Assembly: GCA_029260495.1 (NCBI GenBank)
Contig: JAJDDD010000009.1
Span: 310,001 to 374,000 of the forward strand
Direction of reading: 5' to 3'
Source: Phycisphaerales bacterium
GTDB taxonomy: Bacteria > Planctomycetota > Phycisphaerae > Phycisphaerales > UBA1924
DNA: 64,000 nt
Position 1 is the first letter of the stretch, and every line of letters begins with the position of its first letter. The translations under genes and the position numbers were made by a program. Shown in pieces: positions 22,693-30,652 of the stretch. Below the pieces are notes generated by a model. That model did no database searches and was not told the DNA's origin. It worked only from the letters and a program-made list of their open reading frames with translations.

Positions 22693-22890
22693 AACAGGGT
22701 TGATCTCGCGGAGTGCGGTGATTTGACATCGTCATGATGCTGAGTTGCCCGGTTTCGCTCGTCAGGCGCCAATCGGGCAGAACCAATGTGAAAGAAAGTG
22801 TACCGTCCAGCGTGGCGGCACTGGGGCGCGGAGCGTGGGAACCGTGCAGCGGACAGTGTGACGCGGGCGGCGGCTATGATCGGGCAACGA

Positions 22891-24273
22891 ATGAGTAAGA
22901 CTGCAGGATATGAAGTGCGCGGGCTTGAGTGGCGGTTTTCGCCGGTAGAGTTGGTGCGTGCCTGGCCCGCGGATCGTCGACTCGCGGCTTTGGTGTCGGC
23001 TGAGAGCGAGTCGGAGTGGTCGCGGTGGTCTATTCTGGCGGCGCCGGCGGAGGAGGTGGCGCTCGGCGGGCAAGAAGCACTGGATTGGCTTGGGTCGCGG
23101 CGATTTTCTCAGCATGCGACGGCGGGCCCGCCTTTCGTTGGCGGGTGGATCGGGCATTTTGAGTATGAGCTTGGGGGGGCGATCGAGCCGGCGGTTGGGC
23201 TCGTGGGTGCGGGCCGCCGATCGGTGTGGCTGCGGTGTCCGGGAGCGTATGTCTTTGATCATTCAGCACAGCGATGGATGGTGGTTGGGGATGGGGCAGC
23301 GCTTCCCGGGATTGACGAGTTGGAAGCGGCGGCGCATGCAGCGCGACGGCGCCACGGAGGGGCGCTTGAAGTCGGGCCGATGCGATCGCGCACACGGCGC
23401 GAAGAATATGAGCGAGCCGTGGCGCGGGCAGTGGAGCTCATTCACGCTGGCGATGTCTTTCAAGTGAATCTTTCACACGAGCTGGCAGCGGAATTTTCAG
23501 GTTCGCATCGGGAACTGTTTGTGCGCGCGCACGCAGCGACGGCGCCCTGGTTCGGCGCCTTGCTTGAATCGGAGGCGGCGGGCGGGGCGGTGATGTCGCT
23601 GAGCCCGGAGCTATTTCTTGATGTTGATATGGCGCAGCAAAAATTGATAACCCGGCCGATCAAGGGTACGCGGCCGGCACGCGCTGGGGCTGAGGCGGAA
23701 CTGCTCGCAAGCGCGAAGGATGCTGCCGAGCTGGCGATGATTGTGGATCTCATGCGCAACGACCTGGGGCGAATCGCGGAGCCCGGCGCGGTGCGCGTAG
23801 ATCGCGGGTTCGAGGTTGAGCAGCACGGCGGCGCGAACCAATATGCAAAAAGTGGTGTATTGCATGGCGTAGCGACGGTCTCTGCGAAGCTTCGGGAGGG
23901 CGCCACGCTTGAAGATATTGTCAAAGCTACCTTTCCCGCGGGTTCAATTACCGGGGCGCCAAAAGTTCGGGCGATGCAGATTATTAATGAGCTCGAAGAG
24001 CGCCGGCGCGGCGTGTATACGGGGGCAATCGGGTTTCTCTCAGATCACGGAGCGGCCCGGCTCAGCGTGGCGATCCGGACAGCGACGATTGCCGGAAAGT
24101 TCGTGCATGGGCGATTTGATGAGATGACCGGGGAGTTGCGTTATCCGGTGGGGGCGGGGATTGTGGCTGAGAGTGAGCCGGCGCGGGAGTATGAGGAAAC
24201 GATGCACAAAGCCCGGACGTTTCTGCGCGTTGTGCGCGCAGAGAGCGATGCTTGCGTAGTGGAGCGCACATGA
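22891..24273 (+). CDS. pabB: aminodeoxychorismate synthase component I
   Basis: Forms 4-amino-4-deoxychorismate from chorismate for folate. Chorismate-binding motifs are ARAVELIHAGDVFQVNLSHE, TRPIKGTRPARA (the Lys of PIKGT is typical of PabB), DLMRNDLGRIAEPGAV, TFPAGSITGAPKVRAM and YTGAIGF. No pabA or pabC domain is fused. Among several possible starts (22798, 22876, 22891) I choose ATG 22891. A TATGAT box lies 10 bases before it, so the leader would be only a few bases. The stop overlaps the NUDIX start as ATGA. Confidence 0.9.
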   Translation: MSKTAGYEVRGLEWRFSPVELVRAWPADRRLAALVSAESESEWSRWSILAAPAEEVALGGQEALDWLGSRRFSQHATAGPPFVGGWIGHFEYELGGAIEPAVGLVGAGRRSVWLRCPGAYVFDHSAQRWMVVGDGAALPGIDELEAAAHAARRRHGGALEVGPMRSRTRREEYERAVARAVELIHAGDVFQVNLSHELAAEFSGSHRELFVRAHAATAPWFGALLESEAAGGAVMSLSPELFLDVDMAQQKLITRPIKGTRPARAGAEAELLASAKDAAELAMIVDLMRNDLGRIAEPGAVRVDRGFEVEQHGGANQYAKSGVLHGVATVSAKLREGATLEDIVKATFPAGSITGAPKVRAMQIINELEERRRGVYTGAIGFLSDHGAARLSVAIRTATIAGKFVHGRFDEMTGELRYPVGAGIVAESEPAREYEETMHKARTFLRVVRAESDACVVERT

Positions 24274-24815
24274 GCGGAGCAGTGAACAATCAGCCCGGGT
24301 ATCGGCTCGCGCCGGCGGGCGGGCCGAGCCTGCGCACAGACATTGTTGATGTGTATGTATTTCGTCGAGACGAGCATGGAGCGATTTCATTCCTCCAGCT
24401 TCGGCGCGCCGCGGAGCCGCTCGCCGAGACTTGGCATCCGATCATGGGGCATGTTGAAACCAGCGAGACAGCGATCCAGTGCGCCGCGCGGGAGCTTTCG
24501 GAGGAGGTTGGTCTGGTCGTCGAAAGCGACGTTGTTCTTGGCGCGTGGGCGCTGGAGCAGGTGCATCCGTATTTCGTGGCGGAGATTGACGTGATTGTGC
24601 TGGGGCCTCGATTTGCGGTGGAGGTGGCGTTTGATTGGTCGCCGACGTTGAATGAGGAGCACAGTGAAGCGCGGTGGGTGGAGGAAGGGGAAGCTCGCTC
24701 GCGGTTCTTGTGGCCAGGTCAACGGGCGGCGGCGGCTGAGATTCACTCGGTGATCGTGCCGGGCGGCGAGACAGCCGAGCACCTGCGGATCAGCTGGCGC
24801 CAGTCATCTGTGTGA
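24270..24815 (+). CDS. NUDIX hydrolase, possibly dihydroneopterin triphosphate diphosphatase
   Basis: A single NUDIX domain of 181 aa. The box G-x5-E-x7-REL-SEEVG is complete (GHVETSETAIQCAARELSEEVGL, metal-binding Glu residues present). It is translationally coupled to pabB through ATGA. Local resemblance to NudB ('W.PIMG.VE..ETA' and the C-terminal EEHSEARWVEEGEA pattern) and the pabB link suggest it removes pyrophosphate from dihydroneopterin triphosphate in folate synthesis. This substrate is an inference; a general nucleotide-cleaning role is the alternative. Confidence 0.85.
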   Translation: MSGAVNNQPGYRLAPAGGPSLRTDIVDVYVFRRDEHGAISFLQLRRAAEPLAETWHPIMGHVETSETAIQCAARELSEEVGLVVESDVVLGAWALEQVHPYFVAEIDVIVLGPRFAVEVAFDWSPTLNEEHSEARWVEEGEARSRFLWPGQRAAAAEIHSVIVPGGETAEHLRISWRQSSV

Positions 24816-24879
24816 TGAAGCGCATGAAAAACGCCCGCTTGTTATGAGCGGACGCTTGTCATGTTTTCCCTGATGAATG

Positions 24880-24961
24880 CCCAGGAGAGGACTCGAACCT
24901 CCACCCCGTTACCGGGACTAGCACCTCAAGCTAGCGCGTCTGCCAGTTCCGCCACCTGGGC
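24880..24961 (-). tRNA. tRNA-Leu (GAG)
   Basis: Class II tRNA with acceptor stem GCCCAGG/CCTGGGC, D-arm GCG...CGC, anticodon stem CTAGC/GCTAG around TTGAGGT (anticodon GAG), a long variable arm (CCCGGTAACGGG) and T-arm GGTTCGAGTCC. The discriminator base is A; CCA is not encoded. Confidence 0.95.
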
Positions 24962-24999
24962 GATGGTCGCCTGCTCACTCCGAGCGGGCGGGGGGGGTG

Positions 25000-25027
25000 A
25001 GTATAGCTGGCGCTCGGGCGGTGTCGA
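25000..25027 (-). promoter_or_regulatory. promoter of tRNA-Leu
   Basis: On the minus strand TCGACA (25022-25027), a 16-base spacer and TATACT (25000-25005). Transcription would start about 30 bases before the tRNA 5' end. Confidence 0.6.
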
Positions 25028-25081
25028 GCGTTGTGGGTGCTGGCAGAGCTCGCGGGAGAGAGCGATGGGGGGATGGCGTCC

Positions 25082-25843
25082 CTACGCGAGCCATCGTCCG
25101 CCATCGACGCGCACGATTTGGCCGGTGAGGTAGCTGGCGTCAAGAGCAAGCCAGCGGACGACTTCAGCAGCCTCCTCGGGCGTGCCGGCGCGATTGAGGG
25201 GGACGCGCGAGAGGTAGGTCGCCTGGGATTTCGGATCGGACTCGTGGCCGGACTCCGGGAACGCGACGACGCCGGGCGCGACGCCATTCACACGGATGTT
25301 GGGGGCGAGTTCCCGTGCGAGCGTGTGCACCATTTCGGTCAGAGCTGCTTTGGAGAGCGAGTAGGCGGTGAAGTCTGTGCGCGGGCGTCCGAGGACGTGC
25401 ACATCACACATCGCGACGACCGCGCCTCCCGCAGGAAGAGCGGATGCTCGAAGCAGGGGTGTGAGTTCCTTGGTGAGCAGCAACGGTGCGAGAGCGTTGA
25501 TCCTGAAATGGGCAAGGGCTGCCTCCGCGGTGAGCTCTTTAAGGGGCGTGCGTTGATAGAGGGAGGCGTTGTGAACGAGAACATCAAGGCGCGGGAGAGA
25601 TTGGCGAAGGGCGGCGCCGAGGCGGGAGACAACGTCCAGGTCGGCGAGATCGAGTTGCTGAAGCTGGCAAGCGGCGCCGTGATCGGAAAGTTCATCGCGG
25701 AGTGAATGCGCCTCATCGTCGCTGGTGCGGTAGGTGGCGATGATGTCACACCCGGCTCGGGCGAGTGCGAGCGAGGTTGCTCGACCCACACGCCGGGCGG
25801 CGCCGGTGATGAGTGCAATGGGGCGCTCGCCGGTGATATTCAT
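25082..25843 (-). CDS. folM: SDR-family pteridine reductase-like protein
   Basis: A short-chain dehydrogenase of 253 aa. The cofactor motif is ITGAARRVGRATSLALA; the TGxxxRxG form with Arg is characteristic of PTR1/FolM pteridine reductases, which reduce dihydrobiopterin, dihydromonapterin or dihydrofolate with NADPH. The catalytic Tyr and Lys are in FTAYSLSKAALTEM, and GVAPGVVAFPES follows. The start overlaps the stop of the upstream small membrane gene (ATGA). The nearby pabB and NUDIX genes support a pterin role. The gene name is a family-level assignment. Confidence 0.82.
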   Translation of the reverse strand: MNITGERPIALITGAARRVGRATSLALARAGCDIIATYRTSDDEAHSLRDELSDHGAACQLQQLDLADLDVVSRLGAALRQSLPRLDVLVHNASLYQRTPLKELTAEAALAHFRINALAPLLLTKELTPLLRASALPAGGAVVAMCDVHVLGRPRTDFTAYSLSKAALTEMVHTLARELAPNIRVNGVAPGVVAFPESGHESDPKSQATYLSRVPLNRAGTPEEAAEVVRWLALDASYLTGQIVRVDGGRWLA

Positions 25844-28687: not shown

Positions 28688-29005
28688 TCAGCCCGCGATG
28701 GACTTGATCCGGACCTTCATGTAGCGCTGGCGGTGGCCCTGCTTGCGGCGGTAGCCCTTGCGGCGCTTGAACTTGATGACATCGATCTTCTTATCCTTGA
28801 AGTCTTCGACAAGGATATCTGCGGTGACCGAAGCGCCATCGACATAAGGCTGGCCGATCGTGGCGTCGCCTTGCCCGCCGAGCAGGAGCACTTTGTCAAA
28901 GGTGACGCTCTTGGCGTTGTCAGCCAGCGTGCGCAAATCGATCGTGACCACGTCGCCTTCTGCGACCTTCATCTGGCTGCCGCTGTCTTCAATGATCGCG
29001 TACAT
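28688..29005 (-). CDS. rplU: 50S ribosomal protein L21
   Basis: At 105 aa it has the usual length: MYAIIEDSGSQMKVAEGDVV, 'KVLLLGG', 'VTADILVEDFKDKKI' and the basic end FKRRKGYRRKQGHRQRY, which binds 23S rRNA. AGGA about 9 bases upstream supports the ATG at 29005; the longer in-frame extension to 29422 is not coding-like. Unusually, rpmA does not follow: the next gene in that direction is the convergent protease. Confidence 0.95.
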   Translation of the reverse strand: MYAIIEDSGSQMKVAEGDVVTIDLRTLADNAKSVTFDKVLLLGGQGDATIGQPYVDGASVTADILVEDFKDKKIDVIKFKRRKGYRRKQGHRQRYMKVRIKSIAG

Positions 29006-29084
29006 CGCGTCTAGTCCTGTCTTGGGGTGAAATCTGATGAGCCGAGCAGTGTAGCAGCGCCGGATGGCGAGGCAAGCGGCCGAC

Positions 29085-29753
29085 CTACGGCTTGGGCTTG
29101 ACGCGGGGGGCTTGGCGTGGGCGGACCACCGGCGCCGCCAAAGCTGGAGGCTGATCAGAAAGGTGAGCGAGCCATCGCTGGCAGGGTGGACAGGCGCCAC
29201 AGCCCGGAAAGCTGGTGTGGCTGCGGGTCGTCGTCGGCCGAGGGGGGTCGCCCTCTTCCTGGCACCACCAGGCGCCTTGCAGCGGGGCGTCAAGATCGTG
29301 GGCGAGGTCAGCAATCTGAGCCCGCGTGAGATCAAGAAGCGGAGTCGTGAGCTGCGGACGCTCCTGGCGCGGCACTTCCAGACCAAGAAGCCTCTCGATG
29401 CAAGCGGCGTGCTCGGCAGCACTTGCAGCGGCGTCTAGATCGTCTCCCAGGCTGACAGGCCAGACCAGTCGCCGGCAGCCGAGCTCGATCGCGGTGTGGC
29501 AGGAATGAAGAAGTCGCGTGGAGATCGGCAGCTCGGGCGGGGGAGGGGCTGTCTCGATGAGCTCAGGAAGATCGTACAGCTCGATCAGCCGCTGGCAGGC
29601 GCGGCGGCGGGACTTGGGCGCGGGTCGGGAGCCGGGCTCGAAGCGCAGAAAAACCGTATTTGCAGCTTCCTCAATAGCGAGGAGAGTCGCGACGAGGGCC
29701 GGGAGAGAGCCGTCGGTGAGAACCAGGATTCGGGTCGGACCCGGGGTTGGCAT
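29085..29753 (-). CDS. QueC-like protein without the ATP-binding loop
   Basis: The C-terminus carries the zinc-knuckle pattern of 7-cyano-7-deazaguanine synthase (QueC): a Cys in WWCQEEG, then PGCGACPPCQRW (C-x-n-CGxCxxC). The middle 'HTAIELGCRRLVWPVSLGDD' also fits. However, the N-terminal PP-loop SGGxDS is replaced by LTDGSLPALVAT, so ATP activation seems lost. It may be a degenerate paralogue with another role, or a pseudo-enzyme. GGAGG 7 bases before the ATG sets the start. It reads toward rplU, 79 bases away, and may share its mRNA. Confidence 0.65.
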   Translation of the reverse strand: MPTPGPTRILVLTDGSLPALVATLLAIEEAANTVFLRFEPGSRPAPKSRRRACQRLIELYDLPELIETAPPPPELPISTRLLHSCHTAIELGCRRLVWPVSLGDDLDAAASAAEHAACIERLLGLEVPRQERPQLTTPLLDLTRAQIADLAHDLDAPLQGAWWCQEEGDPPRPTTTRSHTSFPGCGACPPCQRWLAHLSDQPPALAAPVVRPRQAPRVKPKP

Positions 29754-29878
29754 GTACAGGCCTCCGGTGATCGCGTCACGGCGTGATTATGGCCTCTTCG
29801 GCGATTGAGGGGAAGCGACGCTAGAGAGGATACCGGTGAAAACAGCAATGATGGCGTTGGTTGTCGTATCCTGTGGGG

Positions 29879-30652
29879 ATGAATGAAAGGCTGCGAATTG
29901 CTCAGAACTGGTTGCCGCGCTACACGGGGATGCCCGTTGAGGCGTTCGGCGACTACATCCTGCTGACGAACTTTCGGTACTACGTTGAACTCTTCGCTGA
30001 GCGGTTTAAGTGCAAGATCCAGGGGCGCGACCGGGCGATGCAGGCGGCGACGAACGATGACGGGCTCACCATCATCAACTTCGGGATGGGGTCTGCCAAC
30101 GCAGCGACGATTATGGACTTGCTCATGGCGCGCTCCCCGAAAGGGGTTCTCTTCCTTGGCAAGTGCGGCGGGCTGAAACTTTCGTCGGAAATCGGACATT
30201 TTATTTTGCCGATCGCTGCGATTCGCGGCGAGGGGACGAGTGACGATTATTTCCCGCCGCAGGTTCCCGCCTTGCCGTCGTTCAAACTGCACAAGTTTGT
30301 TTCAGACAAGATCGCCGAGCGCGGGCTGGAATATCGCACAGGTGTTGTGTACACGACGAACCGGCGTGTGTGGGAGCACGATCTGGTGTTCCAGCAGCGG
30401 CTTGACGATATGACCTGCATCGCGATTGATATGGAGACCGCGACGATCTTCATTGTCGGGCATCACAATCAGATTGCGCGCGGCGCGCTGCTTTTGGTTT
30501 CAGATGTGCCGATTACGCCTGAGGGCGTGAAGACTGAGGAAAGCGATGCGCAGGTGACGCGGGACTGGACGGATGTGCATCTGGATCTTGGGATCGAAGC
30601 CATGACGGATCTTGAGGCCAAAGGCGAGCAGATCAAGCATTTTCGATACTGA
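29879..30652 (+). CDS. amn: AMP nucleosidase
   Basis: A phosphorylase-superfamily protein of 257 aa. Motifs are TIINFGMGSANAATIMDLL, GVLFLGKCGGL, IRGEGTSDDYFPPQVPALPS and the base-binding 'IAIDMETATIF'. This short form, without the N-terminal domain of E. coli Amn, is the one found in Bacteroidetes and relatives and should hydrolyse AMP to adenine and ribose 5-phosphate. ATG 29879 is favoured: a TATCCT box lies 6 bases upstream and there is no ribosome binding site. Confidence 0.88.
   Translation: MNERLRIAQNWLPRYTGMPVEAFGDYILLTNFRYYVELFAERFKCKIQGRDRAMQAATNDDGLTIINFGMGSANAATIMDLLMARSPKGVLFLGKCGGLKLSSEIGHFILPIAAIRGEGTSDDYFPPQVPALPSFKLHKFVSDKIAERGLEYRTGVVYTTNRRVWEHDLVFQQRLDDMTCIAIDMETATIFIVGHHNQIARGALLLVSDVPITPEGVKTEESDAQVTRDWTDVHLDLGIEAMTDLEAKGEQIKHFRY

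Follow-up and report, generated by a model that had tools for sequence, protein, structure and literature searches.

The proteins closest to the one described here belong to PF06508, whose cluster 1 is QueC, the 7-cyano-7-deazaguanine synthase. As far as the available text of a 2026 survey of PF06508 extends, QatC, Cap9, LarE, cluster 4, cluster 5 and the GMP synthase cluster each keep the SGGxDS ATP loop, and this loop is generally retained in the divergent lineages analysed; clusters 7, 8 and 10, together with the 1.5% of sequences beyond the ten largest clusters, receive no detailed analysis there (PMC13329287). The motifs YxQxHxxE, VPxRN and YPDC are used below as that text defines them (PMC13329287). 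According to the accessible part of Gao et al., the ATP phosphates in QatC are held by three residues of SGGxDS, namely the Asp and the Ser at either end, a Ser/Ser-to-Ala mutant of QatC abolishes defence, and in QueC and Cap9 deazaguanine is recognised by a Tyr and an Asp (PMC13279940).

The window analysed here is a 64,000-nucleotide stretch of a Phycisphaerales genome, in which the minus-strand gene at 29085..29753 encodes a catalytically degenerate QueC paralogue of 222 residues, as identified by ORF calling, Pfam QueC and a predicted model. The initial annotation had described a gene with a good ribosome binding site and no frameshift, and both descriptions are accurate: the ORF starts with ATG, runs to its full length with no internal stop, and is preceded on its own strand by GGAGG at 29761..29765 (plus-strand numbering), 7 nt 5′ of the ATG. 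With QueC the window protein shares the fold, the PLIxxT block and tree kinship, and it has four zinc-type cysteines in a wider spacing, but SGGxDS, YxQxHxxE, VPxRN, YPDC and the Tyr that follows the first zinc Cys are all replaced, the zinc site is lost in 35 of 61 relatives, and neither queD nor queE occurs among the ten window neighbours scanned. Cap9 of type IV CBASS is the best PDB match of a 29-member family profile (E 5.8e-6) and is close in fold (Z 16.9), yet in the available survey text it retains SGGxDS and most QueC motifs and adjoins a CD-NTase (PMC13329287), a gene not seen among the same ten neighbours. QatC, encoded in qatABCD, offers another likeness in its QueC scaffold, rebuilt substrate site and wide gap of C-x19-C (C-x20-C in the window protein), but that text describes a protein of about 400 aa, in a qat operon, that strictly keeps SGGxDS (PMC13329287). 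The LarE and GMP synthase clusters of PF06508 have the PP-loop fold (LarE Z 14.4) without the QueC zinc motif and, unlike the window protein, both keep SGGxDS in the same account (PMC13329287).

No word in the main text of the PF06508 survey begins with planctomycet, phycisphaer or pseudoenzyme (PMC13329287), and a literature search whose coverage excluded most subscription papers and preprints returned no description of a planctomycete QueC-family lineage without SGGxDS. Because clusters 7, 8 and 10 and the residual 1.5% lacked detailed analysis, a loop-less lineage may be hidden among them. Such a lineage, if selected, would serve as a natural experiment on the capabilities of the QueC scaffold in the absence of ATP chemistry.

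Profile and fold comparisons

Pfam QueC (PF06508) matches the window protein at 27.3 bits (cut-off 22), with the match confined to residues 129-193 (profile positions 148-201 of 210), and 14 of the 29 alignment members match it at E <= 0.01. The score against the QueC equivalog TIGR00364 is 17.7 bits, below the NCBI cut-off of 150.3. A single-sequence search of the PDB with the window protein found nothing. In the profile alignment to Cap9, the SGGMDS of Cap9 stands opposite DGslaS of the family, an N-terminal stretch that is weak when scored alone (9.3 bits), and the further PDB matches of the profile start only at E 0.06, are for the most part designed armadillo repeats and appear to be chance matches. 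Judged by these sequence scores, the QueC match is above chance.

An AlphaFold2 model of the window protein, made with an eight-sequence alignment, has a pLDDT of 78.3 and a pTM of 0.79. With this predicted model as query, Foldseek ranked B. subtilis QueC (3bl5) at the top with E 7.3e-7, followed by Cap9 at 1.1e-6, and VIA-align gave Z scores of 18.3 (178 residues aligned, rmsd 3.2) and 17.7 for QueC, then Cap9 and LarE at the values given above, with other PP-loop enzymes at 14.4 or less. The model of L107, a relative lacking the zinc cysteines, returned the same order (QueC 17.2 and 16.4, Cap9 15.4, LarE 13.2), and because of this agreement the predicted scaffold is QueC-like with or without those cysteines. 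The kinship with QueC that the initial annotation had claimed is borne out by profile, fold and tree evidence, and the HMM comparison and structure prediction that it had proposed lead to the same family, through Pfam QueC and the profile match to Cap9 in one case and through QueC as the best solved match in the other. The contrary outcome that it had envisaged, an unrelated zinc-finger protein with no PP-loop fold, did not occur in the fold searches and is ruled out by them, Foldseek and VIA-align both leading to QueC.

Residues lost and residues retained

Residues were tabulated for 102 non-identical sequences, which remained of 114 matched ORFs once 12 whose cores were identical had been removed ahead of alignment and tree building. 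The rows comprise 61 from Phycisphaerales, 17 degenerate ones from families f9, f11, f19 and f25, and 24 intact QueCs (21 canonical and three from f16). The 21 canonical QueCs, which include the window genome's own and of which 16 come from the order, were a non-random choice from the best-matching part of the match list, and the 20 loci from the class but outside the order likewise came, non-randomly, from high in the match list. Alignment A1 excludes L022, which is nearly a duplicate of L017, and has the first part of L023 manually trimmed.

As the initial annotation had noted, the ATP loop is missing. By alignment with canonical QueC, residues 13-20 of the window protein, TDGSLPAL (29694..29717, minus strand), occupy the SGGxDS position, with D14-G15-S16-L17-P18-A19 opposite S-G-G-L-D-S of the genome's own QueC, so that D14, P18 and A19 fall where the motif has its first Ser, its Asp and its last Ser. 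The complete set of these loop residues occurs in 0/61 family rows vs 24/24 intact QueCs. The loop Asp is kept in none of the 61 Phycisphaerales rows and none of the 17 other degenerate rows vs all 24 intact QueCs, and its position is taken in the 61 rows by Ala (22), Pro (21), Arg (7), Glu (4), Gly (4), Leu (2) and Ser (1). The last Ser persists in 36/61 Phycisphaerales and 15/17 other degenerate rows, the first Ser in 5/61 and 7/17, respectively. Because the last Ser is often kept and a Glu stands at the Asp position in 4/61, some phosphate or metal binding is possible.

The remaining QueC motifs divide in the same way. The Tyr of YxQxHxxE, the Tyr and Asp of YPDC, the Lys of PLIxxTK and the Tyr after the first zinc Cys are found in 0/61 Phycisphaerales rows vs 24/24 intact QueCs, as is the Arg of VPxRN together with its Asn, a lone Arg standing in that column in 10/61. 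The f25 row L069 retains the Tyr and Asp of YPDC. The window protein differs from YxQxHxxE, VPxRN and YPDC at every tabulated position. Since the contact residues described for QatC, QueC and Cap9 all differ in it, ATP-driven preQ0 synthesis by the window protein seems very unlikely.

The best conserved block common to the family and QueC is TPLLDLTRAQIA (residues 137-148; 29310..29345, minus strand; from the alignment), and the PL proline, P138 in the window protein, is present in 61/61 Phycisphaerales rows. The initial annotation's upstream Cys is also there: translation and pattern search place Cys 164, 185, 188 and 191 (29181..29264, minus strand) in a putative zinc site, C-x20-CxxCxxC, vs the canonical C(x)8CxxCxxC with its gap of about 8. 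This Cys4 site is kept in all 17 other degenerate rows and in 26/61 Phycisphaerales rows, and the minimum number of changes on the tree is three for the zinc state and one for the loop Asp. The view of the zinc site as a preserved functional part could not be sustained for the family, given its loss in the other 35 members and the purifying selection that still acts on zinc-less pairs.

Residues newly conserved in the family are D14, W98-P99, Q146, W162 and W163. W98 (87%) and P99 (89%; both weighted over 61 family rows) stand vs I and G in canonical QueC, and open the stretch WPVSLGDDLD (residues 98-107; 29433..29462, minus strand), whose WP is family-specific by conservation and whose DLD is placed by the model strand. 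The stretch comes after the fourth strand and immediately ahead of the position of QueC's YPDC substrate motif, the strand before W98 consisting of residues 95-97 in the predicted model. Mean conservation is 1.80 just after strand ends, 1.46 overall and 0.96 before strands, a hint of a retained pocket from what is a weak test, as 18 of 166 circular shifts reach the observed after-strand value.

Selection on relatives of the window gene

Relatives of the window gene are under purifying selection: Nei-Gojobori dN/dS ranges from 0.037 to 0.366 across 11 Phycisphaerales pairs, some of which share a member and several of which have saturated dS. The least saturated pair, L017/L022 (dS 0.46), gives 0.098, and zinc-less pairs are also constrained (L086/L130 0.037; L096/L131 0.101). 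Three canonical QueC pairs give 0.05 to 0.20. The window gene itself, compared with L085, has a dN/dS of 0.259 at saturated dS, the two sharing 42% over 186 codons; the initial annotation's phrase 'selected rather than decaying' is therefore supported through the relatives, the window gene being too distant for a clean test.

Distribution and coexistence with canonical QueC

A scan of the genome_contigs set with the single protein found no relative. Searched with a single sequence, the window genome and 60 relatives gave a match in 50 of the 61 genomes, and a profile search of the remaining 11 added one strong match (G020), with weak partial matches or none in the other ten. Among 298 genomes sampled from the class, strong matches were present in 27/27 genomes of the window's taxonomic family (E <= 1.2e-27) and in 18 of 38 other genomes of the order (E <= 3.4e-28); of the 20 order genomes without a strong match, 18 belong to family f2. 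In a second sample of the window's family, three of 37 genomes had at best a weak partial match. The phylum sample of 246 genomes yielded 13 matches at E <= 1e-12, 11 of them in the order and two outside the class (about 50 bits each).

Of the Phycisphaerales genomes sampled, 45 have a strong family match, and every one of these also has a Pfam QueC match at E <= 1.3e-64. The separate canonical queC that the initial annotation had recommended looking for is present in the window genome (239.8 bits), on a different contig from the QueC-like gene, and in six other genomes (f4, f6, f9, f11 twice and f19) a QueC of at least 243 bits lies away from the degenerate copy. Among f2 genomes a strong family match is found in 2/20 and a QueC match in 18/20. 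Since related planctomycetes keep the gene alongside a normal QueC, it probably does a job other than QueC's. For annotation this is a warning that a Pfam QueC match in these bacteria can represent a dead copy. TGT was found in 60/61 relatives.

Six f11 assemblies (G122, G143, G148, G164, G169 and G212) have only weaker QueC matches (best E 3.3e-11 to 2.4e-20) and could have the degenerate gene but no canonical QueC, although all but G122 are incomplete. Two more f11 assemblies have a QueC match at E 4.2e-4 (G179) or none (G196). Apart from G122 (96%), all of these f11 assemblies are less than 90% complete.

Tree and synteny evidence for descent

The 61 Phycisphaerales rows form one side of a branch with support of 100/99, and all 78 degenerate rows do so at 98/90 in the tree without outgroups, the bootstrap being not fully settled in either case. 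An outgroup tree included 25 of the 61 Phycisphaerales rows, 9 of the 21 canonical rows, 7 of the 10 f11 rows and seven QueCs from plasmids and phages. There the intact f16 QueCs and the degenerate family share one side of a branch (98/93), with an archaeal Halorubrum QueC as their nearest outsider (100/97), and the class's second QueC groups with the QueCs of Rhizobium and an Acinetobacter phage (95/82). The f16 QueCs adjoin the degenerate set, which is separated from them at 93/76, support that is not strong, and the root is uncertain because the outgroup does not form one side of any branch.

Upstream of these genes and on the same strand lie three genes that, from their sequences, we take to be murI, a HEAT-type lipoprotein gene and an MDR dehydrogenase gene. 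With several loci cut by contig ends, murI was counted in 3/3 (f16), 2/3 (f9), 4/10 (f11), 0/1 (f25) and 0/3 (f19) loci, the lipoprotein in 3/3, 2/3, 5/10, 1/1 and 0/3, and the dehydrogenase in 3/3, 1/3, 4/10, 1/1 and 0/3, in the same order of families. The f16 QueC at this locus has all canonical motifs in the three genomes examined of six sampled, and no second full-length QueC was found in these three, one assembly of which is 75% complete. Together, the trees and the partly conserved synteny suggest that the degenerate family descends from an older QueC at the murI-lipoprotein-dehydrogenase locus. From the same tree and synteny, the simplest story appears to be displacement of this older QueC by a second one, with catalysis lost afterwards. 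The f16 genomes, with the sister copy intact and apparently the sole QueC, would then provide a before-and-after pair.

The block of murI, lipoprotein and dehydrogenase genes recurs at L063, L066, L067, L069, L071, L074, L075, L076 and L082. The QueC-type gene adjoining it is intact in f16 and degenerate elsewhere, and no murI was found at L069, which lies on a short contig.

Possible roles of the QueC-like protein

We consider it reasonably likely that the window protein is a QueC-family pseudoenzyme, that is, a QueC that was displaced, lost its catalytic activity and persists as a non-catalytic binding protein. The older Phycisphaerae QueC would have sat at the locus of murI, the HEAT-type lipoprotein and the MDR dehydrogenase until an ordinary second QueC displaced it in most lineages; the old copy would then have lost the loop aspartate, for which a single change suffices on the tree, along with the substrate residues, and would have been retained under purifying selection. 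It would most likely act through binding, without catalysis, and might use the Rossmann-like pocket with the D-G loop, W98-P99, Q146 and W162-W163 to hold a partner protein or a small ligand. More tentatively, a class-wide QueC lineage could have dropped the ATP loop, in many members along with the zinc site, gained the DG loop, WP, Q and WW, and come to bind or transform a ligand, perhaps a nucleotide or deazapurine, by a mechanism outside those of the described QueC-family proteins.

The conserved family-specific residues absent from QueC, the purifying selection and the partial retention of the last loop Ser would also suit an enzyme with new chemistry, acting on a 7-deazapurine or other ligand either independently of ATP or with a different mode of activation, and the QueC scaffold has been repurposed elsewhere, as the available survey text describes (PMC13329287). 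We nevertheless regard such an enzyme as unlikely: the deazaguanine- and adenine-binding residues of QueC are gone, the zinc site is not a shared catalytic part, since 35/61 members lack it, no pathway gene turned up among the conserved neighbours in the order, and Rfam at the gathering threshold reported tRNAs alone in the window and seven loci. Of the initial annotation's proposal, a new member of the 7-deazaguanine family with another chemistry, the kinship thus stands and the other chemistry is not supported, the residues that in QueC hold the ATP phosphates, adenine and deazaguanine being replaced. The dead copy could instead pair with the active QueC or hold an intermediate and so tune preQ0 synthesis, a role that would fit the strong QueC match in all 45 genomes of the order that strongly match the family and the near-universal TGT of the relatives. 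It is made improbable by the placement of the two genes on separate contigs in the window genome and by the f2 genomes, where QueC seems independent of the family gene, and proximity to tgt (within 15 kb in 6/50 genomes) looks like regional synteny. Loss of the catalytic motifs, loss of the zinc site in many members and divergence as fast as that between the window gene and L085 could all mark a decaying pseudogene without function, but the low dN/dS of the 11 pairs opposes decay, as does the strong match in every same-family genome of the class sample, notwithstanding the three genomes with at best a weak partial match in the second sample, and we give this explanation scarcely any credence.

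Genomic neighbourhood

The next gene downstream of the QueC-like gene, after a gap of 70 nt, is rplU (28688..29014, minus strand), encoding ribosomal protein L21 (Pfam 116.4 bits), a neighbour that lies outside the proposed mechanism. Relatives of the ORF that holds it adjoin the QueC-like gene in loci L083, L085, L091 and L097. The gene rpmA usually adjoins rplU; here a convergent S41 peptidase gene comes after rplU, so rpmA does not adjoin it. On the other side, divergent from the QueC-like gene, is a PNP_UDP_1 gene of the nucleoside-phosphorylase superfamily (29861-30652, plus strand). Of the ten window neighbours scanned with Pfam, eight have ordinary matches and two have none, and clustering of neighbours across Phycisphaerales showed only local synteny (rplU and the S41 peptidase) and no conserved operon partner. 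Further away, at 22798-25843, the window encodes a chorismate-binding enzyme, a NUDIX protein and a short-chain dehydrogenase, which might, as a guess at their grouping, form a folate-type group.

Membership in a defence system was rejected, the window protein having no PADLOC match and the ten neighbours scanned including no defence-operon partner; the PADLOC QueC model is matched by three QueC-type relatives and by the genome's own QueC. Control by a preQ1 riboswitch was likewise rejected, as the Rfam search of the window and seven loci gave four tRNAs and nothing else. A functional link to tgt was also set aside, because in the few genomes where the two genes are close the intervening genes form a shared regional block. 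In L158-L163 the QueC-like gene, tgt and a large ORF, which we take to be SecD/SecF-like, lie in one block that we read as regional synteny.
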